A DNA stretch of 64,000 nt from Streptacidiphilus pinicola (GCF_003258295.1 NZ_QKYN01000077.1:1-64000), one strand, 5' to 3'; positions 39,281 through 60,545 are shown, counted from the stretch's first letter. A program made the numbers and translations. Notes: a model not told the origin generated them from the sequence alone.

Positions 39281-39313
39281 ACGGGGTCACGATCGCGTGG
39301 GCCGAGAGGGCCT

Positions 39314-39343
39314 CTCGTGCCTGTCCGGAAGGACAGGCACGAG
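39314..39343. terminator. Strong hairpin between vsr and the methyltransferase gene
   Basis: CTCGTGCCTGTCC and GGACAGGCACGAG form a perfect 13-base-pair stem with a GGAA loop. It lies 34 bases after the vsr stop and 10 bases before the methyltransferase stop, so it can end transcription from both sides. Confidence 0.85.
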
Positions 39344-39352
39344 GCGTTCCGA

Positions 39353-40462
39353 TCATTCGGCGGGGGCCGGCTTCAGCGGGCTGCTCCCCTTGGTCGTTTC
39401 CCACGGACTGTCCACCGCGGCGTCGAGCGCTGCCTCGTCGAGCTCCCATCCCAAGGCGGCAGCCAGCACATGGGCGGCCAGCCGCGGAGGAATGGCATTG
39501 CCGATCTGCTGCGCCCTGGCCTTGCCGTCCCAGGGGAAGTCCATCGGGAAGGTCTGCAGGCGCCCCGCTTCGCCCTCCGTGAACCGGCCGAGATCACGCT
39601 CCTTGGCATCCGGGGTCACCAGGCGGTTGCGGGTCCACTTCCCTGTGATCGTGAACGACGGCTGATCCGAGGTCCTCCGGCCTCGCCGCTCCGTATTGCC
39701 ACCGGTGCTGTAGTTGGAGACTACTTTGAACTCGTCCTTCCGGCCGAGCGCCTCCCCCATCGTCACCCAGGTCTTGCGTCCGTTGCCGTCCGCGGGGCGG
39801 GGAGCGCCGAGGCGGAAGCGGTGGTGCGTGGGCTTGGGTAGTTTCGCCTCGCCGTCACGGCGAGCGATGAGGATGGCTCGCCTGCGCGTCTGCGGGACCC
39901 CGTAGTCCTCCGTGTGGAGAACGCCGGAGACAGTCCGGTAGCCGAGGCCGAGACCGCCGAGAGCCTCTTCAATCGTTTCCCAGACGGGCAGCACACCCGG
40001 GACCTGTTCGAGCACGATGGTGTTGTACGGATGTCCCAGCTCCGCCGCGTGCAATGCCCACTTCAACGGCTGGAGGACGAGCCCGGTGCGATAATCGTCA
40101 CCCAGGTTGGCCAGGCCAGCCGAGACGTCCTCGCCCGTGGCCATGCGCTTGGCGAACGCCTTAACCAGCTCCAAGGCGCGCCGGCCGTCACCATTGCCGG
40201 TGAGGGTGTAGGTCTGGCAAGGCGGGCCGCCTGCCAGGATCGTGGCGTCCGGGAAATCAGCCGCACTGCTCTCGCGGACATCCCCCTGCCTTGTCCGGAA
40301 ACCCGCTGCCTCGCGGGTCTGGCACGCATCCGCGTCCCATTCGACGCCATCGACCGCCAGCCCCAACCAGTGCGCAGCCACGTCGAGACCGCCCGGCCCG
40401 GCAAACAGGTCCACCATGTGGATCTGCGAGGTTTGGGGGGTTTGCGGGGGCGCAGTGGTCAT
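39353..40462 (-). CDS. DNA (cytosine-5-)-methyltransferase
   Basis: 369 residues from ATG 40462. It contains the C5-MTase motifs in order: DLFAGPGG (18-25, motif I), GGPPCQTYTLTG with catalytic Cys82 (motif IV), VLEQVPGV (motif VI, ENV-like, here EQV), YGVPQTRRRAIL (motif VIII), a target-recognition region, and AQQIGNAIPPRLAAHV (motif X). The EQV instead of ENV in motif VI is a variant worth noting. It should modify host DNA at the recognition site of the neighbouring GHKL/Z1 restriction proteins. No ribosome site is clear before the ATG. The site cannot be told from sequence. Confidence 0.92.
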   Translation of the reverse strand: MTTAPPQTPQTSQIHMVDLFAGPGGLDVAAHWLGLAVDGVEWDADACQTREAAGFRTRQGDVRESSAADFPDATILAGGPPCQTYTLTGNGDGRRALELVKAFAKRMATGEDVSAGLANLGDDYRTGLVLQPLKWALHAAELGHPYNTIVLEQVPGVLPVWETIEEALGGLGLGYRTVSGVLHTEDYGVPQTRRRAILIARRDGEAKLPKPTHHRFRLGAPRPADGNGRKTWVTMGEALGRKDEFKVVSNYSTGGNTERRGRRTSDQPSFTITGKWTRNRLVTPDAKERDLGRFTEGEAGRLQTFPMDFPWDGKARAQQIGNAIPPRLAAHVLAAALGWELDEAALDAAVDSPWETTKGSSPLKPAPAE

Positions 40463-41047
40463 GGAGTGGGATCTTATCCGGAGCGGGCGGTCCGGGAGAC
40501 CAGGTGTCACCGTCACGGGATCGGGAACCGGTCCCCTGGTCGGGGCCGTGAGACCGTGGCGCCAGCCTGACCTCGACGGCATGCCCCTTTCATGATCCGC
40601 ATCCGTTCGACGGCGAGGGAGGTGCGGTCTCATTGCGCGCCCCCATTCACGCGACGCCCGAACTCCATCAAGCCGGGCGCCCCGCGCTCAACGGAGCCCG
40701 AGGACTGTGGTGGCAGATGGGTATGGCACATATGGAAGCTCCTGTCCGTATCGACATGACCCACGACACCAGGGAGACCCCGGAAAGGGCCAGCATGTGC
40801 GCGCGAGTAACTGAGCCGGTCCGGATTCCCTAGCGGTCGTTCGACCGAGTGAAGAGCAGTTATTCAGGCACCGATTCGGTTCCCCAGGGACCCGCCGCTA
40901 CTCGTACTGCTGCGAGGCGATGCGGCACGACGGCACCCCCGCTGACGGAAGCCGAACCCCGCTTCAACGCAGCCAACCGGCGCTGGACATGACCCACGCC
41001 CGCAAGACACGGGGCAGAACCATGGACGCCTCCCCCGCTTCAACCTC
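40463..41047. other. Region without a recognised gene
   Basis: About 585 bases between the methyltransferase start and the murB stop. Short open frames exist, such as one of 38 residues beginning MGMAHMEAPVRIDM at 40,719, but none has an operon partner, a conserved pattern or a firm ribosome site. The left part must hold the methyltransferase promoter. This gap marks the boundary between the defence island and the biosynthetic cluster. Confidence 0.45.
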
Positions 41048-42121
41048 TCACGGCTGACGGCCATCCCTCATCTGGACGTAGCGAGGCTGTGCGCCGAAGA
41101 GATCGAGTTCCGGCGTAAGGCAGATGCCCGTATGGGCCTCAACAGCGCAGGCGATCTTGGCAGCAGCCTGCGTGAAGTCATCGGCAGTCGCTCGGCCATC
41201 GGTGACCAGGGTGTACTGCTTGGCGGAGATCCGAACTCCGGGGACGAGCGACTCACCGAGGGAGAAGCCAGCCTGCTTGATGAGCCAGCTGGCGCTCACG
41301 CGGTTGGTGCCGTCTGCGAAGTGGTGGAGCGGCATGCCCTGACGCGTCAACGCCGCAGCCTGGCCGATGCTGACGGGCGGGCTGAGGAAGACGCTGCCAG
41401 CGGAACGATGGTCGGGATCCGTGGGGTCGAGGACCATGCCCTTGCTGCGGCGGACGGCCAGAACAGCTTCTGCGGCCTCCGCAAGAGGAACGCTGGTGCC
41501 GGGCTTCACGCCGAGCTCGTCGGCCACCTGCCCGTAGGTGATCGGGACGCTCTGCTTGGTGCGCGGGAGAAGGAACTGAACGGCGAGGATGGTCCACTGG
41601 TCGCTGTGCTTGAACTGGCTGGTGCGGTGGCCGAGATGGCAGTCGGCCGCTCCGAGCCGAAACGTCTTCCGCTGTTGCCAGTCCCACGCGTGGACCGCGG
41701 TGAGGGTATCTGCGACCTCGATGCCGTATGCGCCGACGTTCTGGATGGGCGTGGCCCCCACGGTGCCGGGAATGCCGGTGAGGCTCTCCAGGCCGCCGAG
41801 GTTCTCGGCAATCGCCGTATCGACCAGGTCCTGCAGCAAGTGGCCGGCCTGAACCGTAACGAGAACGGCGTCACCGCCGGGGGCCTCCTCGAAGGTCAGG
41901 CCGCTCGTCTCCATCTTGATCACGGGAGCCTGGACGCCGGTGTCGGCAGCAAGCACGTTGCTACCGCAGCCCAGGGTCAGCGGCGTGAAGCCGTCAGCAG
42001 AGGCGAGGCGAGCAACGGCGTCCCACTCGGTGGCGTCTCGGTGGTGGATGACAGTGGCAGCAGGGCCGCCGATCTCCAGAGTCGTGAGCGTGGCCAGAGA
42101 GACCTGGTGACGAACGTGCAT
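41048..42121 (-). CDS. murB: UDP-N-acetylenolpyruvoylglucosamine reductase (MurB homologue)
   Basis: 357 residues from ATG 42121. MurB features are LGCGSNVLAAD (FAD-binding), LTGIPGTVGATPIQNVGAYGIEV, AGSVFLSP with the catalytic Ser position (GSxF), and HFADGTNRVSASWLIKQAG. MurB reduces UDP-GlcNAc-enolpyruvate to UDP-MurNAc. An extra murB sited next to an XRE regulator and a biosynthetic cluster is probably not the housekeeping copy; it may supply a precursor or replace a sensitive enzyme. It follows the XRE gene with 25 bases between stop and start, so the two are probably co-transcribed. Confidence 0.85.
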   Translation of the reverse strand: MHVRHQVSLATLTTLEIGGPAATVIHHRDATEWDAVARLASADGFTPLTLGCGSNVLAADTGVQAPVIKMETSGLTFEEAPGGDAVLVTVQAGHLLQDLVDTAIAENLGGLESLTGIPGTVGATPIQNVGAYGIEVADTLTAVHAWDWQQRKTFRLGAADCHLGHRTSQFKHSDQWTILAVQFLLPRTKQSVPITYGQVADELGVKPGTSVPLAEAAEAVLAVRRSKGMVLDPTDPDHRSAGSVFLSPPVSIGQAAALTRQGMPLHHFADGTNRVSASWLIKQAGFSLGESLVPGVRISAKQYTLVTDGRATADDFTQAAAKIACAVEAHTGICLTPELDLFGAQPRYVQMRDGRQP

Positions 42122-42146
42122 GGGCGCCTTTCCGTCGGAGGACCCG

Positions 42147-43481
42147 TCAGGAGGATCGCAGGATGTGATGCGCCCTGTCGACGACCTCATGTGCCCTCCT
42201 GGAATCCACTCTCTCAAATCGGGTCTGTAGGGTGCGGAGCCTCGCCTTGGCGCGGCCGGAGATCAGTCGTTCTCCCAGATCGAGCGCCTGGCAGGCCGCA
42301 TCGGCCGCGCCTTCCAGGTCACCGAGGCCGAGGCGCGCTTCGGCGAGCGAGGCATTGTGGAGCATGCGATTTCGCGGTTGGTCCTGACCAAACAGGTTCA
42401 GGCCACGGACGAGGTGGGCCTCAGCCCGGTCGGAGCGGCCAAGCTCGAGCCAGGCTCGTCCTGCATCGGCAGCCAGGACGGCCGGGGTGACCCAGTACGC
42501 CCATGCTGGTGCGTCGCTGGGAGAACCGTCGGCGTATGCAGCAGACGCGTCGTCGAGGGCGCGAGCGCACGCCGTTTCGTCGGCGAGCTGGGCGTGGACC
42601 CGGGCCTGCCGGGTCGCCAGCAGGGCGTGAACCGATCCGTGTCCGGGCCGGTCCGCCCCTTTGCGGGCGGCACGGATGAGGCTGAGCGCGGCGCCGTGTT
42701 CTCCGGCCCAGGCGGCTTGGTAGCTGAGGCAGGAGACGATGTTCGCGCCCAGGGCGGCATCGCCGGCTGCGTGCGCGGCACGAAGTCCCGTCAGCAGGTA
42801 GCGCTGTCCGAGGCCGGTGAGGTCCTGATCGCAGGCCAACCACCCGGCAAGCTGAGCGAGCTCGGCGAGGATCTGATGGAGACGCTGGCCTGTGTCGGCG
42901 TCGTACGAGCCGTCTCTGGCCAAGGTGGCTGCCCGCCGGAGGTCGTCGGTGACCCAGTCCAGGACCAAGGGGCCACCTTGGACGTCGTCGAGTCGCCGCA
43001 ACTGGGCTACTCGGTCGGACAGCACGTACGTCATCTCGGGAGTCACCGGCTGCCGGCCGACGACGCGGCCCTGGATCTCGACGGGTTCGACCGTGAGCCA
43101 GTCGAGGACCGGAGCGGTCAACGCGTATCCGGGCAGTCCGGGCAGGGTGCTCGCGCTGTCCGATGCGGCATTGAAGACGTGGAGGGGGCCGGACCAGAGA
43201 GAGCCTCCTGTCCATGGTCCGTAATGGCTGCTCAAGGCGGCCGGCTCGACGGTGGGCTCGGGACGCGGCCACAGCATCGGTACGGTGACCGCCTCGCCCA
43301 GCTTCGTCGACAGGATCGCCGTAACGATCTCCGGAACGGCGCCGCGTGGCTTGGCGCCCTTCAACCACGCGTACGGAGCCTTGCGGCTCACGGTGTGCAG
43401 GCCGGCTTCCCGGTTCACCTCGCGACCGAGTCGTTCTGCCGACCATCCGAGCCGATCCAGGTACTCGGCGAGTGTCGCCAT
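42147..43481 (-). CDS. XRE-family regulator with TPR-like C-terminal half
   Basis: 444 residues from ATG 43481, behind GGGAGGG at a good distance; GTG 43490 is upstream in frame. The N-terminal LAEYLDRLGWSAERLGREVN ... KAPYAWLKGAKPRG is a helix-turn-helix of the XRE class seen in streptomycete cluster regulators. After a linker the protein is a helical array of TPR-like units (GDAALGANIVSCLSYQAAWAG, SVHALLATRQARVHAQLAD). It is divergent from the HATPase gene and probably controls the cluster; phased TGACC repeats lie in the shared promoter region. Confidence 0.8.
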   Translation of the reverse strand: MATLAEYLDRLGWSAERLGREVNREAGLHTVSRKAPYAWLKGAKPRGAVPEIVTAILSTKLGEAVTVPMLWPRPEPTVEPAALSSHYGPWTGGSLWSGPLHVFNAASDSASTLPGLPGYALTAPVLDWLTVEPVEIQGRVVGRQPVTPEMTYVLSDRVAQLRRLDDVQGGPLVLDWVTDDLRRAATLARDGSYDADTGQRLHQILAELAQLAGWLACDQDLTGLGQRYLLTGLRAAHAAGDAALGANIVSCLSYQAAWAGEHGAALSLIRAARKGADRPGHGSVHALLATRQARVHAQLADETACARALDDASAAYADGSPSDAPAWAYWVTPAVLAADAGRAWLELGRSDRAEAHLVRGLNLFGQDQPRNRMLHNASLAEARLGLGDLEGAADAACQALDLGERLISGRAKARLRTLQTRFERVDSRRAHEVVDRAHHILRSS

Positions 43482-43556
43482 CGCGCACACCCTCCCTGAC
43501 TGACCATCAAATCAACTACCAGGCTGGCACAACCGCAAGGCCATCGGCTGGGCGTT

Positions 43557-43600
43557 TGACCATTGCTGACCAAGCTGACCCGACACTGACCCGCCTGACC
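43557..43600. promoter_or_regulatory. Phased TGACC direct repeats, candidate operator
   Basis: TGACC begins at 43,557, 43,567, 43,576, 43,587 and 43,596, spaced 10, 9, 11 and 9 bases, close to one helical turn. Two more TGAC/TGACC copies lie at 43,497-43,505. They sit between the divergent XRE regulator and the HATPase gene, where an autoregulator would bind. The binding protein is inferred. Confidence 0.45.
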
Positions 43601-43731
43601 ACGATGAAGGCTTCCGGCGGTCCGTGTGCGCTGCTGAAGTGGCGCTGCAGGGCTGGTCGCAGTTGCCAGCTGGAAGTCGGGATTGGCCTGCCCAACCATC
43701 ACCGGCCTGTTACCGGGCGATCGGAGTACGC

Positions 43732-44247
43732 ATGGGACACATTGCCGTACCTGGGGGCGGCACCACGCTGCATCTGAAAACGCGAGCGGGGCCCGTACAC
43801 CGCGCTGAAGAATCACTCGCCACTCAACCGCCAAGCTGGGTCCGCGACCTGGTCTTCGAAACGCCCGTCAGACCGGAAGCTGTTCCGACAGCCAGGGAAT
43901 GGCTGCGAGAACGCTTCGGGCAGATCTTCGACCAGGAGGTCCTCTCGGATCTGCAGCTGGTCCTCACGGAACTCGTCACGAACGCAGTGACCGCGAGCCC
44001 GAAGGACGAGCTCGTTCGCGTGGCGCTGCGTCAGGTACTCAGGGGCCTCCTCATCGAGGTGACCGACACGAGCCCGCAGGCTCCGCGTCTGCGGCAGCCC
44101 ACCGCCCGGGACCAAGAAGGCCGGGGCCTCGTGCTCGTGTCCGCGATTTGTCCCGACTGGGGCTGGCACCCGCAGGACCCCGGCAAGGTCGTCTGGGCTC
44201 TCTACCAGATCTCGGACAGCCGGAACGAAGCACCCACTTCGGCCTAA
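43732..44247 (+). CDS. HATPase (RsbW-like anti-sigma type) ATP-binding protein
   Basis: 171 residues from ATG 43732, eight bases after GGAG. It has VLSDLQLVLTELVTNAVTAS (N-box with the ELVTNA core), VTDTSPQAPRLRQP (D-box) and DQEGRGLVLVSAICPDWGW (G-box). These features mark the HATPase_c_2 proteins, abundant in Streptomyces and often paired with XRE/BldB-like regulators. Its place as the first rightward gene beside the XRE gene suggests a regulator of the cluster. Kinase or anti-sigma activity is not shown. Confidence 0.8.
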   Translation: MGHIAVPGGGTTLHLKTRAGPVHRAEESLATQPPSWVRDLVFETPVRPEAVPTAREWLRERFGQIFDQEVLSDLQLVLTELVTNAVTASPKDELVRVALRQVLRGLLIEVTDTSPQAPRLRQPTARDQEGRGLVLVSAICPDWGWHPQDPGKVVWALYQISDSRNEAPTSA

Positions 44248-44319
44248 CCGTCACTCTCGACGACCCGCCGGGAGCGCAGTCAGGCGCCGCAGAGGCGCTG
44301 GAGAACCATGCCCTCTTCC

Positions 44320-44346
44320 GGGTGACGCCCCCAATCCGCGTCACCC
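44320..44346. promoter_or_regulatory. Perfect inverted repeat upstream of the cluster's first enzyme gene
   Basis: GGGTGACGC and GCGTCACCC are perfect 9-base arms separated by 9 bases, ending 26 bases before the ATG at 44,373. It could be an operator or an attenuator hairpin. The TGACG/CGTCA half-sites recur in the palindrome at 52,105. Confidence 0.4.
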
Positions 44347-44372
44347 CACGCTCACGACTCTGCGAGGTTTCC

Positions 44373-45191
44373 ATGGAACTGTCCCTCATCACGGACGAGG
44401 TAAGTCAGGACCCGGAAGACGCGATCGGCCTGGCCCTCGCTCACGGCCTTCGGAAGGTCGCCGTGCGATCGGTCTGGGGTACGAACGTCGCCTTGCTCGA
44501 CCGACCCGCGGTCGACAGGCTGGCGAAGCTCTTCGCCCGCCGCGGCGTCGGGGTGTCCAGCATCATGTCCCCACTCTTCAAGTGCCACGCTCCTGGCGCG
44601 GATGAGTCGGGCCTCGTCGACCCGCACTTCATCGGGCTCCCACCTGTGTTCGAACAGCACGTCGCAGTCGCGGGATGGCTCGGCCAGATCGCGGATGCGG
44701 TCGCCGCTCCGCTGGTTCGCATCTTCACCTTCCTCGATCCATCGCCGGGCGGTCGGCCCTGCCGGCTCGGGGCGTCGGAGCTCGCCACCATGCGGGAGGC
44801 CGTGACCGACTGGCCCTACGGAGTGGAGCCCGTCATCGAGAACGAGTTCGTCTGCAGGGTGAAGACGCTCCCCGAACTCACGGCGTTCGGGCTACGGAGC
44901 GGTTGGCGCGCCGTCGCGGACCCGTGCAACGGCCTCCTCGCCGGCGACTCCGACGGCCTGGAGCACATGACCGCCGAACTGCTGACCGCGACTGCGGACG
45001 TGCACGTCAAGGACCGGTCCGGTGCGCGTTACGTCCCGGTGGGCGATGGCGAGCTGCCGTGGCAGCAGATCTTCGAGCGGCTGCGTCAGTTCGGGTACAG
45101 CGGCACCGTGACGCTGGAGTCGCATCTTCGCCGCGACCTCGACGGCGTCGAGGCGTCGCTGCGGGCTCTCACCCGGCTGGCCGCCTCGTGA
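44373..45191 (+). CDS. Sugar phosphate isomerase/epimerase-like TIM barrel
   Basis: 272 residues from ATG 44373. The pattern MELSLITDEVSQDPEDAI, VRIFTFLD, VIENEF, WRAVADPCNGL, ADVHVKDRSG and GYSGTVTLESHL matches the xylose-isomerase-like TIM-barrel family, whose metal ligands are the Glu of IENE, the Asp of ADPCN, the His of VHVKD and the Glu of TLESH. Such enzymes isomerise or epimerise sugars and inositols. The stop overlaps the next gene's start (GTGA). With the following Gfo/Idh/MocA enzyme it resembles an aminocyclitol- or sugar-modifying pair. Confidence 0.85.
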   Translation: MELSLITDEVSQDPEDAIGLALAHGLRKVAVRSVWGTNVALLDRPAVDRLAKLFARRGVGVSSIMSPLFKCHAPGADESGLVDPHFIGLPPVFEQHVAVAGWLGQIADAVAAPLVRIFTFLDPSPGGRPCRLGASELATMREAVTDWPYGVEPVIENEFVCRVKTLPELTAFGLRSGWRAVADPCNGLLAGDSDGLEHMTAELLTATADVHVKDRSGARYVPVGDGELPWQQIFERLRQFGYSGTVTLESHLRRDLDGVEASLRALTRLAAS

Positions 45192-46261
45192 GGCCGCTGG
45201 GACTGGCCGTGGTGGGCTGTGGTCGCTGGGGACAAAACCACGTCCGCGTGGCCGTCGGCGCGCCGAACGTGGCCCTCGTAGGCGTGGTGGACCCGGACCG
45301 CGCGCAGCGCCAACAGGTGGCGCGTGAACACGCGGTGACGGGTTGGTCTCACCTGGACCAGGCCCTGGAGGACCCGCGCGTCGAGGCCGTCGTGATCGCG
45401 ACGCCGGCCACCACGCACAGCGAACTGGTGGCGCGGGCTCTGGTTTCCGGTCGGCACGTGCTGGTCGAGAAGCCGGCGACGATGAGCGTCGCGGATGCGA
45501 CTGCTCTGGTCAGTGCCGCGGAAGAGCAGGGTGTCCAACTCTCGGCCGGGCATACGTTCCTCTACTCGCGGCCCGTCCGGAACGTGGCGGCCTGGCTGCG
45601 CGAGGGGGCGCCCAGCGCGCCGTGGCTGATCCGGAGCGAGCGGCTGGGCGGGCAGCGCCGCGGGGACTGCGGCGTGCTGTGGAACTTCGGTCCGCACGAC
45701 GTGTCGCTCCTGCTGCACCTGGTCGGTGACCCGGTGGTGGAGGTGGCCGCGCGAGGACATCGCTTCCCCGGAGGCGGTCACCTGGACACGGTGACGATCG
45801 ACGTGACCTTCTCCTCCGGAATGCGGGGCGAGGTCTACCTGGGCTGGCGGCACGCCGGGGCCAAGCGGTCGCTGCGGCTGCTCGGGGAGGACTGGGTGCT
45901 GCGGTACCGGCACGGACACCTCGACGGCGGGGACGTCATGCTCCTCGGCGGCCGCGGTGAGGGTCCCGCTGCGGACGCCGCGCTCACGGCGGGCTGCGAA
46001 CGCGACCGCCGCGGTGCGCTCGCCGGGTACGGCGAGCCGCTACGGGTGCAGTTGGAGGAGTTCGTGGCCGCCTGCCGTTCGGGGGTTCCCAGCCTCACGG
46101 GCCCGGATCACCTGCTGGCGGTCACCGCGGTCTTGGAGGCGGCCGAGTACTCCGCGGCTCTGGGCGGCCTTCCCTACCGCCTGGCGCCTTTCGCGCCTGC
46201 GCTCACGGCTCCCGTGTCGCCCCTGCCAGCCGTCCACGAGTTCGCGACGGAGGAGGTCTGA
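45188..46261 (+). CDS. Gfo/Idh/MocA-family oxidoreductase
   Basis: 357 residues from GTG 45188. It begins with a nucleotide-binding GLAVVGCGRWGQNH (GxGxxG), then VVDPD, VVIATPATTH and HVLVEKPATMS, with the family EKP motif, and a C-terminal beta domain with LWNFGPHDVSLLLHLVGDP carrying the active-site His. These enzymes oxidise or reduce sugars or cyclitols with NAD(P). The gene is translationally coupled to the TIM-barrel gene and followed after one base by the carbamoyltransferase. The longer upstream frame is antisense-free but overlaps the TIM barrel and is rejected. Confidence 0.9.
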   Translation: MRPLGLAVVGCGRWGQNHVRVAVGAPNVALVGVVDPDRAQRQQVAREHAVTGWSHLDQALEDPRVEAVVIATPATTHSELVARALVSGRHVLVEKPATMSVADATALVSAAEEQGVQLSAGHTFLYSRPVRNVAAWLREGAPSAPWLIRSERLGGQRRGDCGVLWNFGPHDVSLLLHLVGDPVVEVAARGHRFPGGGHLDTVTIDVTFSSGMRGEVYLGWRHAGAKRSLRLLGEDWVLRYRHGHLDGGDVMLLGGRGEGPAADAALTAGCERDRRGALAGYGEPLRVQLEEFVAACRSGVPSLTGPDHLLAVTAVLEAAEYSAALGGLPYRLAPFAPALTAPVSPLPAVHEFATEEV

Positions 46262-46262
46262 C

Positions 46263-47978
46263 GTGTCTTCATACGTCCTGGGTGTGAACCTTACGCGTAC
46301 CTCCACCGGCATCGGGCTGGACGACGGCGCGGCAGCCCTGCTCCGCGACGGCGTGCCCGTGGCGGCCATCGCCGAGGAGCGGCTGGTCCGGCGCAAGCAC
46401 AGCGGCGGAGTCAGGAAGGCCGTCGGCTACTGCCTGGTGGAGGCGGGCATCGAGATCGACGCGGTGGACGCCGTCGCGGTGAGCATCTGCTGCGAGCTGA
46501 CGCCCTCACCGCGCTGGGCTGCCTCGGCGCTTCGGCGTGAAGGCGTCCTGGTGCGTGACGACCAGGTCGTCGTCGTGCCCTCCCACCACCTTTCGCACGC
46601 GGCCAGTGCCTTCCTGCCCAGCCCGTTCCGCGAAGCCGTCACCGTGGTGGCGGACAACGAGGGCAACATCCTCGGCCCGCGGCTCCACAGCGACTACTGG
46701 CGCAACTCACTGGAACGAACGACCGTGTGGGACTGCTGCGACGACGGACGGCTGCGCCTGGAGCAGGTGGGGCGTCACGGAGACGGTCCGGACGAGCTGT
46801 CTCTGGGCTCGGCGTACGGCTACATCACGCGTTGGCTGGGCTTCCCCAGCTATCACGACGCCAGCCAGACCATGGCGCTGGCCGCGTACGGGACCGGCAA
46901 GTGGACCGACGCCGAGCTGTTCACCTGGCACGACGGACGCCTCAGATGCCGTATGCCGCAGCGCCACCGGGCCAAGACCGAAGCCGTCTCCGACTGGCTC
47001 CACGAGCAAGCGGGTGTCAGCGCTCCCCCGCGCACACCCGGGGCCGCGCTCGACGGGACGCACCACGAAGTGGCTGCTCTCGCCCAGGCGGCACTGGAGA
47101 ATGCTCTTCTCCGACTCATCGGCGACGCCGTCGAGCGGACGGGCCTGCGCTCGGTGTGCCTGGCTGGCGGGGTTGCACTGAACTGCGTCGCCAACCACCG
47201 GATCGCCCGCGAGCTCGACCTGGACGGTCTCTTCGTCCAGCCCGCGGCCTCGGACGTGGGCCAGGCGTTGGGCAACGCCCTCTGGGCCCACCGGCGGCTC
47301 GGTGGCGACGGGCGATGGACGATGGCCAGCAGCTCCCTGGGTCACACCTACACCACGGCGGAGATCGACGCCGCGCTCGCGCCGTGGAGCGACCAGGTCC
47401 GGGTCACCCGGCCCGAAGACCCCGTCGCCGATGCGGCGTCCCGGATCGCCGACGGGCAGGTTGTCGGCTGGTTCGACGGCGGCAGCGAGTACGGCATCAG
47501 GGCGCTGGGCCAGCGCAGCCTCCTCGCTGACCCGCGCCGCGCCGACACCAAACCGCGGCTGGACGCGGAGATCAAGAGGCGCGAGGCGTTCCGCCCCTAC
47601 GCCCCGAGCGTCACCGCGGGCGCGGCAGGCGACTGGTTCGACGTCCGCCCGGCGGAGACGGCTGCTGCTGGCCCGGCCACGTTCATGCTCCAGGCCGTCC
47701 CGGTCTTGCCGGATCGGCGCGCGCGCATCCCGGCCGTCGTCCACGCCGACGGCACGGCGCGCGTCCACGTGGTGCGACCTGAGATCCAACCGCGCTATCA
47801 CACGCTGATCGAGCGGTTCGCCGCCCTCACCGGTGTCCCGGTCCTGCTCAACACCTCGTTCAACGCGGCCGGGAACCCCATCGTCGAGAGCCCCGCCGAC
47901 GCTGTCGCGGAGTTCCTCACGCTCGGCCTCGACGCCCTGGTCTTCGACGACCGCGTCGTCACCCGCGCCGCGAACTGA
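46263..47978 (+). CDS. NodU/CmcH-type carbamoyltransferase
   Basis: 571 residues from GTG 46263, eight bases after GGAGGAGG. It shows VLGVNLTRTSTGIGLDDGAA ... AIAEERLVRRKHSGG, the His pair in PSHHLSHAASAFLPSPF, VVADNEGN, CLAGGVALNCVANHRIA, GSEYGIRALGQRSLLADPR, and LLNTSFN with PADAV in the YrdC-like end. The family adds a carbamoyl group from carbamoyl phosphate to hydroxyls of sugars or antibiotics. Its presence implies a carbamoylated small-molecule product. Confidence 0.92.
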   Translation: MSSYVLGVNLTRTSTGIGLDDGAAALLRDGVPVAAIAEERLVRRKHSGGVRKAVGYCLVEAGIEIDAVDAVAVSICCELTPSPRWAASALRREGVLVRDDQVVVVPSHHLSHAASAFLPSPFREAVTVVADNEGNILGPRLHSDYWRNSLERTTVWDCCDDGRLRLEQVGRHGDGPDELSLGSAYGYITRWLGFPSYHDASQTMALAAYGTGKWTDAELFTWHDGRLRCRMPQRHRAKTEAVSDWLHEQAGVSAPPRTPGAALDGTHHEVAALAQAALENALLRLIGDAVERTGLRSVCLAGGVALNCVANHRIARELDLDGLFVQPAASDVGQALGNALWAHRRLGGDGRWTMASSSLGHTYTTAEIDAALAPWSDQVRVTRPEDPVADAASRIADGQVVGWFDGGSEYGIRALGQRSLLADPRRADTKPRLDAEIKRREAFRPYAPSVTAGAAGDWFDVRPAETAAAGPATFMLQAVPVLPDRRARIPAVVHADGTARVHVVRPEIQPRYHTLIERFAALTGVPVLLNTSFNAAGNPIVESPADAVAEFLTLGLDALVFDDRVVTRAAN

Positions 47979-48032
47979 CCGGCGCCAGTCCGGCACCGGG
48001 CGCCCACTCCCCATGACAAGGAGCGCAAAGCG

Positions 48033-49733
48033 ATGACCGAGTCCTTCTCCCCTCACTCCGTCCACGACGGGGGCTGCGGTTCCTGCGGTCCCCGTCCCGC
48101 GGGCGGCAGCACCCCGGTGCTACTGCCCCTGCCGAGGCCGCGGCGAGCGGGCGCCGAATCCGGTGACTCGCGCGACGGCCTGCCCGCACTCGCCGCCGGG
48201 GCGGACGCGGTCCTGACGGCGGTCCACGCCAACGCCGAGGCCCTCCCGGCGGTGGCACCGCGTGAAGACGGCCCGCAACTGGAGTCCAACACACAGCTGA
48301 TCGACCTCGGCGACGGCGCCTGGTGCCTCAACCACGCGCTGCGCCAGCAGCAGGTCTTCGGCGGAAGGTTACTTCGCGACGCCGTCGAGGACCTGCGGGC
48401 CGGACGAACCCCGTCGGCATCAGACCTGATGGCGAGGCTCGTCGCGGAGGGCTTCGTCGTGGACGCCGGGGGAGAGCCCGAGGCGTTCCACCGCCGGCTG
48501 ATGGCTCAGGAGGACTCCAAGGAGGAGACCGAGCCGTCGTTTACGCTCCTGCGCATCCTGCTGACCGACGTCTGCAACCTCTCCTGCCAGTACTGCAAGG
48601 TCATCCCCAACGTGCTCGCCCCGCAGGCCGAGCCGACCGACGCCGACCGCCTCACCGAGACCATCGCGTTCTTCTTCGCCCACTCCGACCCCGCCCGCCC
48701 GAAGATCATCCACATCACGGGCGGCGAACCGACGCTGTTCTTCCATCAGGTCCAGCACGTCGTGACCACCGCCGAGCGGCTGGCCCGCCCGGGCGAGAAC
48801 TTCTGGTTCGTCATCGGCACGAACGCGGTCCTCATCCGCGGACGGCACGCGGCCTTCCTGGCAGAGCACGACGTCAAGTGCATCGTCTCCATGGACGGCC
48901 CCGCCGAGATCCACGACCAACTGCGCCGCAACCACGGAGGTCACGGCTCCTGGCGGATGGTCGACGCCGGTGTCCGACAGCTCCAGCGCGCCGGCGCGGA
49001 GGTGTCCTTGTCCATGGTCCTGGGACAGCACAACCTCGACCGGGCCGAGGAGATCATCGCCTGGTTCCTCGACACCTACCAGCCCACCGGTCTCGGCGTG
49101 AACTTCATGAAGCCACCCACTCCCGAGCAGCAGGACTACGCCCAGCTCATCGACCCCGACCGCTACGCCGACCGCATGTACGCGATCCACCAGGCCTTCC
49201 GCGACCGAGGCCTGTTCCTGGAGCTCGTCCACCGCAAGCTGCAGCCCTTCGTCGAACGCCGGTACCGCTTCCACGACTGCGGCGCGGCCGGCGGGACCAA
49301 CCTCAACGTCGACGCGAAGGGCAACGTCGGCCCGTGCAAGAGCTTCCTGGTCATGGACAAGCTCGCACTGCGCACCCTGGACATCGACGCATACCGGGAC
49401 ACCGTGGTCACTCGCTGGCGGAAGCGCTCTCCCATCTACTACCAGCACTGCGAGGGGTGCGCGGCCAGGGGGATGTGCGGCAACGGATGTGCGTACGACG
49501 CCCTGGTGCACAGCGGGGACGAGATGGCCATCGACGTGCGCAGCTGCCACTACACTCAGCGCTTCAACCAGCTCTTCGTGCGGGACCTTTTCGACCAGGT
49601 GCGCCCGCCCGGTCCCGTTCCCGCGAACTGGTGGCACGTTCCCACCGCCGAGGAGCGGCACCTGCTGCTCGGCGCGGTCGCCGCCCGTCCGCGCACCCTT
49701 TCGTACTCCATCGGCCACCAGACGCTCGACTGA
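48033..49733 (+). CDS. Radical SAM / SPASM-domain protein with N-terminal PqqD-like region
   Basis: 566 residues from ATG 48033, preceded by AAGGAG. Residues 80-155 look like a PqqD-type winged helix (NTQLIDLGDGAWCLNHALRQ ... LVAEGFVVDAGG) that usually binds peptides. The radical SAM CxxxCxxC is CNLSCQYC (181-188), followed by HITGGEPTLFF. The C-terminal SPASM-like cluster has GTNLNVDAKGNVGPC and CEGCAARGMCGNGC. It also has a short Cys pair (GGCGSCG) near the N-terminus. SPASM enzymes modify peptides or similar substrates. No short precursor gene is seen next to it, so the substrate may be a non-peptide or carrier-bound group. Confidence 0.9.
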   Translation: MTESFSPHSVHDGGCGSCGPRPAGGSTPVLLPLPRPRRAGAESGDSRDGLPALAAGADAVLTAVHANAEALPAVAPREDGPQLESNTQLIDLGDGAWCLNHALRQQQVFGGRLLRDAVEDLRAGRTPSASDLMARLVAEGFVVDAGGEPEAFHRRLMAQEDSKEETEPSFTLLRILLTDVCNLSCQYCKVIPNVLAPQAEPTDADRLTETIAFFFAHSDPARPKIIHITGGEPTLFFHQVQHVVTTAERLARPGENFWFVIGTNAVLIRGRHAAFLAEHDVKCIVSMDGPAEIHDQLRRNHGGHGSWRMVDAGVRQLQRAGAEVSLSMVLGQHNLDRAEEIIAWFLDTYQPTGLGVNFMKPPTPEQQDYAQLIDPDRYADRMYAIHQAFRDRGLFLELVHRKLQPFVERRYRFHDCGAAGGTNLNVDAKGNVGPCKSFLVMDKLALRTLDIDAYRDTVVTRWRKRSPIYYQHCEGCAARGMCGNGCAYDALVHSGDEMAIDVRSCHYTQRFNQLFVRDLFDQVRPPGPVPANWWHVPTAEERHLLLGAVAARPRTLSYSIGHQTLD

Positions 49734-49743
49734 GGGGCCGTCC

Positions 49744-51285
49744 ATGACCACCATCACTGCTTCGCCTGACTCCGTGCGTCTTCGCGACGCCGCTGCGGAC
49801 GCCTTCCAGCTGCATGTTCTCCCCGCGATCCGCACCTCCCTCCCGGGCGTGGAGGACCTGCTGACCGCGACGGTCACCTCGTCCGTCGCCTACGGCGCCG
49901 CCGACGAGCACTCCGACCTCGACGTGTTCCTGGTTTTCCGGCGCGAACGGGACTATCGCGCACACGCCGCGGCCCTTGGAGCCCTCATCGACGGCCTCAG
50001 CCTCGACGAGCTCTACGGGCCCATCTGCGACAAGGGCATGCGCTTCGAGATCGAGAGTCTCCCCCGGGCCGACCTCTCACGCCTCTACCACCACCCCGAG
50101 AACCCGGATCACTGGCACCAGCAGAGCGAGTGGCTGCTCGCCTGGTTCCTGGACTCCTGGCCCCTGCACGACCCTGGGGGCGTCCACGCGCGCATGCGCC
50201 GGCTCGCCGGGACGTGGCCGCCGGCCGTCCTGGCGGCGCGCCAGGACGAAGCGTGGACCCGGGTCACCACCTGGACGGCGACGGCCCTGCGGCTGCTGCA
50301 CGACGAGGGCACCACCTATCCGGCCGTCCGCGCCGCGTTCCGCGCGGCAACCGTCGGTCTGGAGGCGGCGTACCTGTGTGCGGGGCGCTTCGCCCCTCAT
50401 CCCAAGTGGCGTGAGTCTTACGCCCGCCGGCACCTCGCGCACTCACCGGACGCCTGTCGCGTGCTCGCCTCCCAGCAGCAGCTCGCCGAGGTCCTCGCGC
50501 ACCCGCCCTATCGGTCGGAGGACCTCGCCGAAGCGCTCGAAGAGCACCAGGACAGGCAGAAGCCGCCGGGCGACGGGCAGGAGCCCTGCCTCGACTGGCA
50601 CGGGCCGTTGACCGCTGCGTCGGATACCTTCGCCGACAGGCACGGCCGTATCCACCTGCTGCGCCGGCGCGCGCCCGGCGCCCTGGTCCTCGGCGCCGCC
50701 CGCGCCGCGGCGCACGCGGGCGAGACCGTCTATCTCGCGGGCGAGACCGGATACGACCTTCTCCTGTCGCAGCGTCCCGGCTACGACCACTCCATGCGGG
50801 TGTCCGAGCCGCTGCGCTGGCTGCACGCGCACGGCCTCAGGGGCGACCCGGCCGGGGACACGTCGGCCACGGAGAACCTTCGCTGGAGGTACCTGAACTT
50901 CGTGCTGTGGCGCAAGCTCCGCGTGGTCGACAAGACCCGGCGCCGCGGCCTTCACTTCACCTGCCGCTGGTACCAACTGCAGGTCGTCGACCACCTGCTG
51001 GAGGCCGAGACCCTCCTGGCCGGAACGCACGCACCGCCCCTGCACCGCCTCACCAGAGCGCCCCGTGGCTTCACCCGGCCGCCCCTCGCCGGCCTGCTGG
51101 ATGAAGCCCGCGCGGACACCGGCCTCTCCGACGTCGGCGCGTTCCTGTCCCAGGGCTGGCGAGACCTCGCCGGAGTGCAGGACCGCCTGGTCCGGCACCG
51201 CCTGCTCGACCCGCGCGACGTCACGGATCCCCTGGCGGGCCAGTGGGACGTCCAGTACTGGAAGTACGAGAACCTCTTCAGCTGA
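49744..51285 (+). CDS. Nucleotidyltransferase-domain protein
   Basis: 513 residues from ATG 49744, behind GAGGGG. The N-terminal TVTSSVAYGAADEHSDLDVFLVF (44-66) is the minimal nucleotidyltransferase motif (G-S/x-x-Y-G-x-x-D-x-x-S-D-x-D), with Asp58 and Asp60. The rest is helical and not recognised. Enzymes of this fold adenylate or otherwise nucleotidylate small molecules, including aminoglycosides, so either biosynthetic activation or self-protection is possible. It lies within the tight rightward operon, 11 bases after the radical SAM gene. Confidence 0.75.
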   Translation: MTTITASPDSVRLRDAAADAFQLHVLPAIRTSLPGVEDLLTATVTSSVAYGAADEHSDLDVFLVFRRERDYRAHAAALGALIDGLSLDELYGPICDKGMRFEIESLPRADLSRLYHHPENPDHWHQQSEWLLAWFLDSWPLHDPGGVHARMRRLAGTWPPAVLAARQDEAWTRVTTWTATALRLLHDEGTTYPAVRAAFRAATVGLEAAYLCAGRFAPHPKWRESYARRHLAHSPDACRVLASQQQLAEVLAHPPYRSEDLAEALEEHQDRQKPPGDGQEPCLDWHGPLTAASDTFADRHGRIHLLRRRAPGALVLGAARAAAHAGETVYLAGETGYDLLLSQRPGYDHSMRVSEPLRWLHAHGLRGDPAGDTSATENLRWRYLNFVLWRKLRVVDKTRRRGLHFTCRWYQLQVVDHLLEAETLLAGTHAPPLHRLTRAPRGFTRPPLAGLLDEARADTGLSDVGAFLSQGWRDLAGVQDRLVRHRLLDPRDVTDPLAGQWDVQYWKYENLFS

Positions 51286-51301
51286 AGCCGGAGCCACCAC
51301 G

Positions 51302-52129
51302 ATGTCCCGACTCGCCCTCCTGGGCTCAGCCACCGGTGGAGCCCTCTCGCCCGTCCTTCACCGGTCCGCCTATCACGCACTCGGCCTGCCCTGGACCTAC
51401 GAGGCGATCGACTGCGCGCCCAGCCAGCTCGGCCGTCGGCTTGACGAATGCCGCGCCGGAGAATGGGCCGGATTCTCGCTGACCATGCCGCTCAAGCAGG
51501 CGGTCGTCCCGCTGCTGGACGAGATCGGCGACACCGCCCGGCAGACGGGCACGGTCAACTGCGTCAGCGCCCGGGATGGCCGCCTCCTCGGCGACAACAC
51601 CGACGTTCACGGCATGACCGCCGCTCTGAGCCAGGTCCTGCCCTCCGCCGAGGACGTCGTCGTCCTCGGCGGCGGCGCAACAGCGTGCTCGGCGCTCGCA
51701 GCCGCGCATCGCTTCGGCGCGAAGGCGGCCACCCTGCTACTGCGGAGCCCCGACCGCGCGCCCATCGTGCGGGAGATCGCACGCCGGGTCGGGATGCGCC
51801 TTCGTGTCCGCCCCTGGACCGAGGCCCGTGAACATCTCGACGCGCCATTGGTCGTCTCCACCGTGCCGCCCGGCGCGGCAGACGTCCTTGCGACGGGCTG
51901 GCGGCCCGGGGCTGGCGTGCTGCTGGACGTGGTCTACCGGCCCTGGCCCACCCCACTCGCCGCCGCCGCGCAGCCCGCCGGACGGACCGTCGTCGGCGGA
52001 CTCGCCATGCTCGTGCACCAGGCCGCCCGGCAGGTCGAGCTGCAGACCGGATGCGAGCGGGCACCGCTCCAGGCGATGTTCGCGGCCGTTGATGAGATCG
52101 CGAGTGACGTTACGTCAATCAGTCAATAG
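51302..52129 (+). CDS. Shikimate dehydrogenase family protein
   Basis: 275 residues from ATG 51302. It has LLGSATGGALSPVLHRSAYHALGLP (substrate-binding region, residues 6-30), FSLTMPLKQAVVP with the catalytic Lys, TVNCV, LLGDNTDVHGM with the catalytic Asp, VLGGGATACSALAA as the NADP-binding loop, and a C-terminal QTG. It is of normal family length. In a biosynthetic cluster it is more likely to reduce a shikimate- or cyclitol-like intermediate than to serve aromatic amino acid synthesis. Its stop is two bases from the ribosome site of the next gene. Confidence 0.88.
   Translation: MSRLALLGSATGGALSPVLHRSAYHALGLPWTYEAIDCAPSQLGRRLDECRAGEWAGFSLTMPLKQAVVPLLDEIGDTARQTGTVNCVSARDGRLLGDNTDVHGMTAALSQVLPSAEDVVVLGGGATACSALAAAHRFGAKAATLLLRSPDRAPIVREIARRVGMRLRVRPWTEAREHLDAPLVVSTVPPGAADVLATGWRPGAGVLLDVVYRPWPTPLAAAAQPAGRTVVGGLAMLVHQAARQVELQTGCERAPLQAMFAAVDEIASDVTSISQ
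52105..52117. promoter_or_regulatory. TGACGT-T-ACGTCA palindrome near the end of the dehydrogenase gene
   Basis: A perfect six-base palindrome around a single T, 12 bases before the dehydrogenase stop and 23 bases before the serS start. It shares TGACG/CGTCA half-sites with the inverted repeat at 44,320. It could be an operator for separate serS control; otherwise it is chance. Confidence 0.35.
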
Positions 52130-52139
52130 GAGTGGATCA

Positions 52140-53426
52140 TTGACATCAGGAACCGGATCGAAGACTGGCCGCCGCATCACTATGATGGGGCAAGTGATCG
52201 ATCTGAAGGCCGCACGCCTGGAGCCAGAGACCTACCGTGCCGCCCTCGCCCGACGAGGCGCGGCTGACGACTTCGACGCCCTACTCGCTGTGGACGCGAG
52301 TTGGCGCGAACTGACCGAGCGCGTGGACCAGCTTCGATCTCAGAACAAGCCGAAGGGAGCGCCGACTCCCGAGCAGATCGAGCACCTCAAGCAGCTCAAG
52401 GAGCAGCTGCGCATCTCCGAGGACGAGCTCGCCCAGGCCGCCGAGAAGCGCCAATACCTGCTCGACCGCCTACCCAACCTCCCCCACCCCACCGCGCCCG
52501 ACGGCGGCGAGGACGAGGGTGAGATCGTGCGGACCTGGGGCTCGATCCCCACGTTCGGCTTCACGCCCAAGGACCACCTGGAGCTCGGCTCGCAGTCGGG
52601 CTGGGTCGACATGAAGCGCGGCGCGCGCCTGTCCGGTTCGCGCTTCGCGTACCGGGTCGGCAACGTCGCTCTCGCCGAGACCGCCCTGTACCGGTTCGTC
52701 CTGGACCACGTGATCAGCAAGGGCTTCACCTACCTGCTGCCGCCGGTGCTGGTCAACGAAGCGGCCATGTACGGCACGGGCTACCTGCCGAACGAGGAGA
52801 GCAACCTCTACCGGCTCGACAAGGACGAGCTGTACCTCAGCGGCACCTCCGAAGTCGCTCTCGGCGGCTTTCACATGGATGAGCGCCTGGAGGAGGCCGA
52901 GCTGCCGGCCCGCTACACCGCCTTCTCGACGAACTTCCGCCGTGAGGCCGGCTCGGCGGGCAAGGACACCCGCGGCATGTTCCGGGTCCACCAGTTCGAC
53001 AAGGTGGAGATGTTCGTCTTCTGCCTGCCCGAGGATACCGAGCGCATCCACGACGAGATCCTGGCCATCGAGGAGGAGATCGTCCAGGCCCTCGGCCTGC
53101 CGTACCAGGTGGTCAACATCGCCGTCGGGGACCTGGGCAACCCGGCCGCGAAGAAGTACGACATTGAGGCATGGTTCCCGGCCCAGCAGCGATACCGGGA
53201 AGTCACGTCCTGCTCGAACACCACCGACTACCAGGCGCGGCGCCTCAACGCCCGTGTCCGGCGCGAGCACGGCAGCGAGTTCCTTCACACGGTCAACGGC
53301 ACCGGCATCACCGCCCGTGCCCTGCTCGCGGTGATGGAGAACTTCCAGGACGAGCACGGCGTCGTGGCCGTCCCCGAGGTCCTCCAGAAGTTCGGTGCAC
53401 CGGCGCGACTCGGAGCCACCGACTGA
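52140..53426 (+). CDS. serS: Seryl-tRNA synthetase, cluster-associated
   Basis: A class II SerRS of 428 residues if started at TTG 52140, which has AGGAG seven bases upstream. ATG 52182/52185 or GTG 52194 would give the usual 'VIDLKAARLEPETYRAAL' start but lack a good ribosome site. The N-terminal long coiled arm (LLAVDASWRELTERVDQLRS ... RISEDELAQAAEKRQYLLDR) and the catalytic motifs (FRREAGSAGKDTRGMFRVHQFDKVE, TGYLPN, EVTSCSNTTDYQARR) are intact. Cluster-borne SerRS enzymes serve either as resistant copies or to supply seryl-tRNA to tRNA-dependent transferases (as in valanimycin synthesis). It ends one base before the convergent HD gene's stop. Confidence 0.93.
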   Translation: MTSGTGSKTGRRITMMGQVIDLKAARLEPETYRAALARRGAADDFDALLAVDASWRELTERVDQLRSQNKPKGAPTPEQIEHLKQLKEQLRISEDELAQAAEKRQYLLDRLPNLPHPTAPDGGEDEGEIVRTWGSIPTFGFTPKDHLELGSQSGWVDMKRGARLSGSRFAYRVGNVALAETALYRFVLDHVISKGFTYLLPPVLVNEAAMYGTGYLPNEESNLYRLDKDELYLSGTSEVALGGFHMDERLEEAELPARYTAFSTNFRREAGSAGKDTRGMFRVHQFDKVEMFVFCLPEDTERIHDEILAIEEEIVQALGLPYQVVNIAVGDLGNPAAKKYDIEAWFPAQQRYREVTSCSNTTDYQARRLNARVRREHGSEFLHTVNGTGITARALLAVMENFQDEHGVVAVPEVLQKFGAPARLGATD

Positions 53427-53427
53427 T

Positions 53428-54042
53428 TCAACCCCTTTCGGTGTCGGACGACTCACTGATCGTCCGGCACCAAGGGCTGTCCAGCTCCAGCTCCAGCTCG
53501 TCCAAGAAGGTGTGGGCATAGGCTCGACGAGCGGGGGCGAGACGTTGAGCCGTGGGTGTCCGGAACTCGGGACGGTCGACAAAAGCCCTTGCGATCCGGA
53601 GCGTCTCCTCGACCCGCTGACCACGCGCCCCGCCGGTCGTGAACGCCTTCGCGATACCGAAAGGCCCCATGGCCTCCCAGTAGTTGGCGTCGTACACCAA
53701 CTGCTCCTCCGGCGAGACCGGCTCGGTCAGATGCCGTTCCAGTGCCGCGATGCCCTCTTCCGCCTCGACGGAAGTCCAACCCAGGCCCTCCAGAAAGCGC
53801 TGGGTCCGCTCACGGAAGCAGGAGTCCGCCATCTTCTGGACCAGGCCGTGGAAGCAAGCCAGGAAGTACAGCAGATCCTGTCTTGGAGTCGTCCCCTCAG
53901 CCAGCAGTTCGGCCCGCGCGATGACGCGCTCGATGTGCACGAAGTCATGCGCCGGGTCCTTGGCCTCGTACAGGGGGCGTGCCTCGGCGGCGTAGGACGA
54001 CAGGCGATAGCGCTGCGCCTTCCCAGAAGCAGGCGGGGTCAT
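53428..54042 (-). CDS. HD-domain-like protein with degenerate active site
   Basis: 204 residues from ATG 54042, behind GGAGGAGA. The HD-fold pattern HDFVHIERVIARAELLAEG is present, but the central HD dipeptide is replaced: FLACFHGLVQ reads HG where AALLHD is expected. Later FLEGLGWTSVEAEEGIAALERHL fits the fold. Loss of the metal-ligand Asp suggests reduced or altered phosphohydrolase activity. It lies convergent with serS, with one base between the stops. It may be a cluster accessory gene or a neighbour. Confidence 0.7.
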   Translation of the reverse strand: MTPPASGKAQRYRLSSYAAEARPLYEAKDPAHDFVHIERVIARAELLAEGTTPRQDLLYFLACFHGLVQKMADSCFRERTQRFLEGLGWTSVEAEEGIAALERHLTEPVSPEEQLVYDANYWEAMGPFGIAKAFTTGGARGQRVEETLRIARAFVDRPEFRTPTAQRLAPARRAYAHTFLDELELELDSPWCRTISESSDTERG

Positions 54043-54267
54043 CACTCTCCTCCGCCTCGGCAGCAGTAGCTGTCTCGGGCAGCACCTCCACCCCCGTGGT
54101 TCCATGAGACCTACTGGTCGGGGCAGGGGCATGTCGGGATCCGCCGAACAGGGGAATCGACGCCAGAGCGGGTCCCGCCGGGATGCCGGCGTTGGCGGAA
54201 CCGATCGAGCCGCCGGTTCGAGTGACTGCGGCGCACCGATGGCCACATGGCTCACGCACCGTGCGGC

Positions 54268-54723
54268 TCACCCCGAGAGACGGGCCCCGAAGACGACGAA
54301 GACCGCTTTTCCCGACGGCGTCCGCCTTGCCGACAGGCAACCCTGGAACAAGCTGCTCAGCAGGCTCAGCCCGCGTCCTCGCTCACCCATCAGGTCAAAG
54401 CCGGGCCTTACCTGCCCGGTGCCCTCAGGCGGCGCGACGGGGTGCAGCGCGATAGGCGGGAGATCCGGACTGCTGTCATGGCACTCGAGGACGTACTCGC
54501 CGCCGCTGGTCAGCAACCGCAGCTCGTACGGACCGGCGGCGTGCTCCGTCGCGTTGGCCACGAGCTCCGAAGCCGCGAGCAGCACGTCATCCACGACGGC
54601 CTCGCTCAGGTTCAGGCCCAGCAGCTCGGGACGCAGCCGCAAGCGGGCGAGCCGGGCCGGCTGCACGGTTCCGGCGTTCCAACGGCAGACGATCACGCTC
54701 TGCCCGCTCGGCAGGCCGGTCAT
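54268..54723 (-). CDS. HATPase (RsbW-like) ATP-binding protein
   Basis: 151 residues from ATG 54723, which overlaps the stop of the small upstream ORF (ATGA). It has VVDDVLLAASELVANATEHA (N-box ASELVANA), LECHDSSPDLPP and GFDLMGERGRGLSLLSSL (G-box), typical of the anti-sigma/HATPase_c_2 family. It is the second such protein in this window and differs clearly from that at 43,732. The target is unknown. Confidence 0.8.
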   Translation of the reverse strand: MTGLPSGQSVIVCRWNAGTVQPARLARLRLRPELLGLNLSEAVVDDVLLAASELVANATEHAAGPYELRLLTSGGEYVLECHDSSPDLPPIALHPVAPPEGTGQVRPGFDLMGERGRGLSLLSSLFQGCLSARRTPSGKAVFVVFGARLSG

Positions 54724-54884
54724 GCCGCAGCCCACCGAGGTACCGGGCGAGCGTGCCGACGCTGACGGCGATGCCGCCCCCGGCCCGGGCTCAGGAACGA
54801 GCGCGTGCCGCGGGCGACAAGTGCGACGTTGAAAGGGCCGTACCGGAACGTGTCGAGCACGACGAGCAGAACGAGCATGAACAC
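54720..54884 (-). CDS. Small hydrophobic/basic protein coupled to the HATPase
   Basis: 54 residues from GTG 54884 (GTG 54887 and ATG 54878 are also in frame), six bases after GGAGG. It begins VFMLVLLVVLDTFRYGPFNV, a likely membrane helix, and ends in Arg-rich sequence. Its TGA overlaps the HATPase start by four bases. The coupling and ribosome site support it; the family is not recognised. Confidence 0.5.
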   Translation of the reverse strand: MFMLVLLVVLDTFRYGPFNVALVARGTRSFLSPGRGRHRRQRRHARPVPRWAAA

Positions 54885-55042
54885 CACGGGCCTCCGATCC
54901 ACGCTGGGCGGAGCACCACGACACCCTGACCAGGGCGATAAGGGCCAGGGGTGATCGAAAAGACTTCTGTGCGCACCCAGAGGGACCTCGACAAGGGGCG
55001 ACGACAGCCGTCGTCGGCGCGCTGAGAGCGAGGTGGCCAGTC

Positions 55043-55306
55043 GTGGTTTCCATGATCGCGGGGATCGCAGCCCTGCTGCTTGTGCAGCTCCCGCTACGGC
55101 TGGAGACGGCAGCCGTCTGCTTCGTCCTGGCGGTGCTCGGTCCCGATCTGAGCACCGTCGATGTGGCCCTGTTCCGCCTCCCCGATGCCATCGTGCTACC
55201 CGCCGTCGTCGTGCTGGCGCTCGTCGCAGCCTCGGCGTCCGCTTACAGGCGCCCGGATCTGCTGGCGCGTTCACCGGTGGCCAGCCTGGCCTCGGTCTGC
55301 TCATGA
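55043..55306 (+). CDS. Small predicted membrane protein
   Basis: 87 residues from GTG 55043. It contains two hydrophobic segments (MIAGIAALLLVQLPL and a second near residues 48-65, DAIVLPAVVVLALVAAS). GAGG lies nine bases upstream. No family is recognised. It is divergent from the HATPase pair, with the shared promoter region between 54,885 and 55,042. Confidence 0.4.
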   Translation: MVSMIAGIAALLLVQLPLRLETAAVCFVLAVLGPDLSTVDVALFRLPDAIVLPAVVVLALVAASASAYRRPDLLARSPVASLASVCS

Positions 55307-57664: not shown

Positions 57665-57671
57665 CGCCGAC

Positions 57672-60532: not shown

Positions 60533-60545
60533 CCGAGGGAGGGAT

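Follow-up and report, generated by a model that had tools for sequence, protein, structure and literature searches.

A conserved operon with a second seryl-tRNA synthetase

Why does a small operon of Streptacidiphilus pinicola, with neither a polyketide synthase (PKS) nor a nonribosomal peptide synthetase (NRPS), carry a second gene for seryl-tRNA synthetase (SerRS)? The operon lies in a stretch of 64 000 nt (NZ_QKYN01000077.1:1-64000 of GCF_003258295.1; 'the window' below) from a genome of 8.4 Mb in 281 contigs. A first-pass annotation, made from the sequence alone, had proposed here a biosynthetic cluster for a carbamoylated sugar- or cyclitol-like product, with seryl transfer from tRNA or an antibiotic directed at SerRS. 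This interpretation is partly supported by our analysis. The operon very probably serves specialised metabolism; the best reading, to which we give an even chance, is a non-PKS/NRPS pseudo-sugar or cyclitol product with the SerRS as an immunity copy and/or seryl donor.

Relatives of the operon were found by searching whole genomes with its radical S-adenosylmethionine (SAM)/SPASM protein. Besides the window, full loci are present in S. neutrinimicus NBRC 100921 (G008), Streptomyces sp. TP-A0356 (G885) and the genomes G036, G038 and G133; the cluster is thus kept in six genomes of several genera, and a fragment occurs in a metagenome-assembled genome (MAG) named Mycobacterium sp. The order isomerase, Gfo/Idh, radical SAM, nucleotidyltransferase, SerRS is the same in all six full loci, so this grouping of genes is not due to chance, and the co-occurrence in other genomes on which the first-pass annotation had made its cluster depend is found. 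Identity to the window's proteins is 74–95% for the radical SAM enzyme, 51–81% for the nucleotidyltransferase and 66–96% for the SerRS.

The genes that vary between loci encode a carbamoyltransferase, a shikimate-dehydrogenase-like enzyme, a second epimerase, an SDR enzyme, a PhyH oxygenase, a glycosyltransferase and a sulfotransferase. The carbamoyltransferase gene is present in four of the six loci (missing in G036 and TP-A0356). In G038 and G133 the place of the shikimate-dehydrogenase-like gene is taken by genes for an SDR epimerase and a second epimerase; in TP-A0356 that gene is present, with the genes for the PhyH oxygenase and an additional Gfo/Idh enzyme after it, and the second epimerase of G038 and G133 recurs there downstream of SerRS (72–74% identical). 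In the MAG fragment a sulfotransferase gene follows the radical SAM gene. That the core is kept while its decoration is swapped is the main reason for reading the locus as a specialised-metabolite cluster with interchangeable tailoring, and from the exchanged tailoring genes a family of related products is to be expected.

Seven rightward genes (44373–53426) form the compact operon, with gaps of −4, +1, 54, 10, 16 and 52 bases in order, none above 54. All the enzymes named in the first-pass annotation, as well as the ATPase that it had placed beside them, were found in comparisons with Pfam, NCBIfam and PDB:

43732..44247 (+), HATPase_c_2/anti-sigma-type ATPase, probable regulator (PF13581, E 1e-11)
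44373..45191 (+), core 1, TIM-barrel sugar epimerase/isomerase (AP_endonuc_2, D-tagatose 3-epimerase-like; PF01261, E 6e-12)
45188..46261 (+), core 2, Gfo/Idh/MocA oxidoreductase (PF01408, E 5e-29)
46263..47978 (+), variable, O-carbamoyltransferase of NovN/GdmN/TobZ type (PF16861, E 2e-58)
48033..49733 (+), core 3, radical SAM/SPASM enzyme (PF04055, E 1e-12)
49744..51285 (+), core 4, nucleotidyltransferase with a long cluster-specific C-terminal part (weak Pfam matches, invariant motif residues)
51302..52129 (+), variable, shikimate-dehydrogenase-like enzyme (PF08501, E 4e-20; NF001311 above cut-off)
52182..53426 (+), core 5, second SerRS (TIGR00414, 419 bits)
53428..54042 (−), HD-domain-like protein, degenerate (PRK10119, E 2e-7, below cut-off)

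The Gfo/Idh start is read as GTG at 45188 and overlaps the isomerase stop.

The cluster SerRS as a specialised paralogue

The TIGR00414 score compares with a cut-off of 302 bits, and the conserved TSEV, FRREAG, NGT and Arg, with motifs 2 and 3 present, place the protein among class II bacterial SerRS. The motif residues that we take to contact serine and ATP are kept, and the enzyme is predicted to be catalytically intact, apparently at least. The housekeeping SerRS of the genome lies apart from the cluster, on contig C131, and the two share 44–45% identity over aligned columns. In a tree the six cluster SerRS make a single clade (support 100/100) separate from other streptomycete SerRS. Their tRNA-binding arm is about eight residues shorter at the tip and the loop preceding the motif 3 Arg has a one-residue deletion, each in six of six copies; a comparison with 30 other streptomycete SerRS showed neither change in any of them. 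Judged by sequence, the cluster SerRS is therefore not of the housekeeping streptomycete lineage. Of 247 Streptomyces genomes, just the one that bears the cluster holds a close relative (the next match is 50%), which argues that this SerRS travels with the cluster; its sequence features mark it as a specialised paralogue.

A second SerRS bound to a cluster is a classic flag for a SerRS inhibitor, and producers of SerRS-blocking antibiotics carry a spare SerRS copy; to our knowledge, few natural SerRS inhibitors have been described. We consider it likely that the cluster SerRS provides immunity, seryl supply or both, while for immunity being at least part of its role the balance is even. The tight operon position, the binding of the SerRS clade to the cluster and the precedents of VlmL and AbmK would also suit an enzyme that only supplies seryl groups, VlmL-like, for making an amide or ester from Ser-tRNA or Ser-AMP, with no immunity. 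No protein of the operon is recognised as a seryl transferase, however, and one could hide solely in the C-terminal half of the nucleotidyltransferase, which is an orphan; supply alone is thus a tentative option that we rate as rather doubtful.

As a separate observation, the genome of TP-A0356 has three SerRS genes, the third of which may belong to another cluster.

Sugar-type and tailoring enzymes

The product class is suggested by the first two core enzymes. The TIM-barrel protein matches D-tagatose 3-epimerase in PDB (E 2e-5) and keeps the E/D/H/E residues of the epimerase family in six of six loci; for the Gfo/Idh enzyme, found at the six loci, the nearest model is UDP-GlcNAc 3-dehydrogenase (NF040723, E 3e-32, below cut-off). 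The carbamoyltransferase is closest to O-carbamoyltransferases of antibiotics, with PDB matches to decarbamoylnovobiocin carbamoyltransferase (E 7e-78) and GdmN (E 4e-76). Since it is absent from two of the six loci, carbamoylation is a tailoring step and not a core one. Thus the sugar- or cyclitol-like half of the earlier proposal gains from these matches, the carbamoylated half would apply to some loci only, and we regard a sugar or cyclitol core as somewhat favoured.

The shikimate-dehydrogenase-like enzyme keeps Lys and Asp, presumably the catalytic pair as in AroE, and in four of four copies the first Ser of the SxS motif, presumably the carboxylate-binding element, is Ala. By these residues it is not classed as an AroE shikimate dehydrogenase, and its substrate may therefore not be shikimate.

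In TP-A0356, a glycosyltransferase, a methyltransferase and the second epimerase lie after SerRS on the other strand (L008, 17362–20892, −); these genes probably lead to a glycosylated form of the product.

The radical SAM/SPASM enzyme and the nucleotidyltransferase

The radical SAM/SPASM assignment follows from the Cys pattern: CX3CX2C at C181/185/188 and SPASM cysteines at C416, 435, 473, 476, 482, 486 and 505, all invariant (PF13186 itself gives only E 0.09). The N-terminal part has the motifs GCGSCG and LPxPR. The protein ends in a 16-residue tail, ARPRTLSYSIGHQTLD, which is identical in seven radical SAM proteins; of the gene's last 17 codons, 12 show synonymous changes, and 8 of the 17 residues just before them vary. 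Its role may be that of a substrate, of a docking peptide or of a part of the active site.

These features raise the question of whether the enzyme is a peptide maturase, with a ribosomal peptide encoded elsewhere, or its own C-terminal tail, as the substrate. Its best NCBIfam models are maturases of proteins or of ribosomally synthesized and post-translationally modified peptides (RiPPs), the seven-Cys SPASM set is complete, and the tail is constant past a variable linker in spite of the synonymous changes; borosin methyltransferases are known to carry a fused core peptide. Yet core peptides usually vary, the operon has no peptidase, and comparison of small open reading frames (ORFs) around the six loci gave only GC-rich low-complexity matches, with no conserved small ORF above that noise and with operon gaps of at most 54 bases. 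The first-pass annotation had likewise seen no known RiPP precursor; it had made no use of the maturase-like radical SAM families. The C-terminus of the nucleotidyltransferase is strongly conserved as well, so the function of such tails may lie in the active site or in protein contacts. We dropped the idea of a peptide-recognition domain at the N-terminus because the hhalign alignment with the FibroRumin maturase covered only residues 165–522 and did not reach that domain. With the PapB, FibroRumin and QhpD maturases the enzyme shares the radical SAM core and the SPASM Cys pattern at ∼23–29% identity, but it falls far below every curated cut-off, has no precursor that we could find and is set apart by its own N-terminal motifs and invariant tail. 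On balance a peptide product seems unlikely. Less probable still is a combination in which the self-carried tail, as substrate or scaffold, would be joined by the sugar enzymes, nucleotidylation and seryl activation into a nucleotide- or seryl-conjugated SerRS inhibitor.

Relatives of the radical SAM enzyme were absent from viral contigs, and none above 60% identity was found in plasmids. A relative on an Embleya plasmid adjoins quinone-cofactor-oxidase-like genes, a protein-cofactor context.

The nucleotidyltransferase has an S..G..SDLD motif, with S47, G51, D58, D60 and E102 invariant. The GS/SDxD motif and the third acidic residue place it with the aminoglycoside nucleotidyltransferase (ANT)/KNTase-like proteins, with weak fold support that includes a weak match to ANT(4''). 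The fold matches of both proteins are to be read as weak because their AlphaFold2 models, built from few input sequences, have low confidence (predicted local distance difference test, pLDDT, of 38 for the radical SAM enzyme and 44 for the nucleotidyltransferase). Outside the genome that carries it, the nucleotidyltransferase has no relative among 294 sampled genomes of the order, and a search of 72 556 plasmid records likewise gave none.

A proposed route and its weighing

For the pseudo-sugar or cyclitol product, we infer substrate, step order, nucleotidylation, product and target as follows. The epimerase and the Gfo/Idh enzyme (here with the shikimate-dehydrogenase-like one) would remodel a sugar or cyclitol through oxidation, epimerisation and reduction steps; a radical modification would come from the radical SAM/SPASM enzyme; the carbamoyltransferase would, as an optional step, cap a hydroxyl; and the ANT-like nucleotidyltransferase would add a nucleotidyl group. 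The product would act on, or be built with, seryl activation, and the SerRS paralogue would be the producer's insensitive target copy and/or the source of seryl-AMP or Ser-tRNA.

Several points weigh against this proposal. Among NCBIfam models, those nearest to the radical SAM enzyme (E down to 9e-36, far below cut-offs) belong to maturases that act on peptides or proteins and not on sugars. The nucleotidyltransferase is assigned from weak matches, from a motif and from a model of low confidence. An exporter is lacking from the operon, as is any enzyme recognisable as an acyl-transfer partner of VlmA or AbmF kind; the earlier suggestion of seryl transfer or a SerRS-directed antibiotic thus keeps a specialised, apparently intact paralogue and lacks a recognised partner. 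The genome sets are partial samples, which makes rarity approximate. The rare and scattered occurrence itself speaks for the proposal: the cluster is in 5 of 395 Streptomycetaceae sampled, in 1 of 393 Streptomyces and in 2 of 70 genomes in the genus of G038, and of 395 genomes sampled from the class only the window's own has it.

The missing exporter, together with the NsdA- and HATPase-kind regulators that adjoin the operon and the degenerate HD protein, could also speak for a non-antibiotic function, namely an internal signal, a cofactor or a tRNA-modifying or stress operon with an auxiliary SerRS. We hold this to be improbable, as the sporadic spread and the swapped carbamoyltransferase, PhyH, glycosyltransferase and sulfotransferase genes better fit a diversifying metabolite.

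The pseudo-sugar or cyclitol proposal is directly testable, as the cluster is carried by S. neutrinimicus NBRC 100921, a culture collection strain, and by TP-A0356, a studied strain; a small PKS/NRPS-free operon of seven to nine genes is fit for expression as a whole.

Boundaries and surroundings of the operon

The first-pass annotation had set the cluster at 41048–53426. The start needs correcting: the operon proper begins at 44373, or at 43732 if the HATPase gene is counted. The HD-domain-like gene (53428–54042), which belongs to the cluster, had been missed. The HATPase gene has a counterpart of 74% identity in the S. neutrinimicus locus and of 41% in G038 and G133, where it adjoins the same operon. 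The HD-domain-like gene is convergent with serS and kept beside it in five of six loci; in all five copies the HD doublet is HG.

Two genes upstream were considered as members and rejected: murB (41048–42121, −) and the gene of an NsdA-family regulator (42147–43490). Neither occupies this position at any other locus, so we regard them as mere neighbours; distant NsdA-kind regulators do lie near the G036 and G133 loci. The MurB protein is a second UDP-N-acetylmuramate dehydrogenase, 43% identical to the other genomic copy (contig C137), and its gene is a duplicated essential gene beside the cluster, apparently not part of it. The 64-kb window has no tRNA genes, and Rfam gave no match over 40000–58000.

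Further away, 29211–40633 is a defence island with a type II cytosine methyltransferase, a Z1 helicase (MzaC-like), an MzaD-like protein and ATPase/restriction-enzyme-like proteins; it resembles an MZA-type system that includes a restriction-modification gene. At the contig end (847–5459, −), a protein with an aKG-HExxH peptide beta-hydroxylase domain has an EACC1-type caspase-like protein next to it, which would suit an FxSxx/HExxH neighbourhood for peptide modification. Excisionase-like and replication-relaxation-like ORFs at 58400–64000 suggest a putative mobile element beside the cluster.

Comparison with known systems

The first-pass annotation had also made its idea depend on the genes matching no known cluster, and we found no such description in the open-access literature; a subscription paper could still hold one. 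The nearest parallel is albomycin/SB-217452 (abm), whose AbmK is a resistant SerRS and a seryl donor at once and is encoded with the radical SAM enzyme AbmJ and the carbamoyltransferase AbmE (PMC9032320). Like abm, the window operon groups a carbamoyltransferase and a radical SAM enzyme with a SerRS that is not the housekeeping one. The AbmH transaldolase, the AbmD pyridoxal phosphate (PLP) epimerase, the aminoacyl-tRNA synthetase-like ligase AbmF, the N-methyltransferase and the siderophore NRPS of abm are not among the window operon's proteins; conversely, the window operon adds the epimerase, the Gfo/Idh enzyme, the nucleotidyltransferase and the shikimate-dehydrogenase-like enzyme, and its carbamoyltransferase is dispensable. 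VlmL of the valanimycin cluster is a further SerRS precedent (PMC9032320). Valanimycin and other azoxy clusters share the cluster-encoded class II SerRS, but neither a seryl-tRNA-dependent transferase nor an N-oxygenating enzyme is recognised in the window operon. Since these partner enzymes are absent, the operon is a member of neither the albomycin nor the valanimycin type; by analogy, it may still work like one of them. Agrocin 84 and microcin C are nucleotide inhibitors of aminoacyl-tRNA synthetases. A nucleotidylated warhead and an insensitive synthetase would be common to them and to the window operon, a likeness of logic only; inhibitors of this type are named in PMC9032320.

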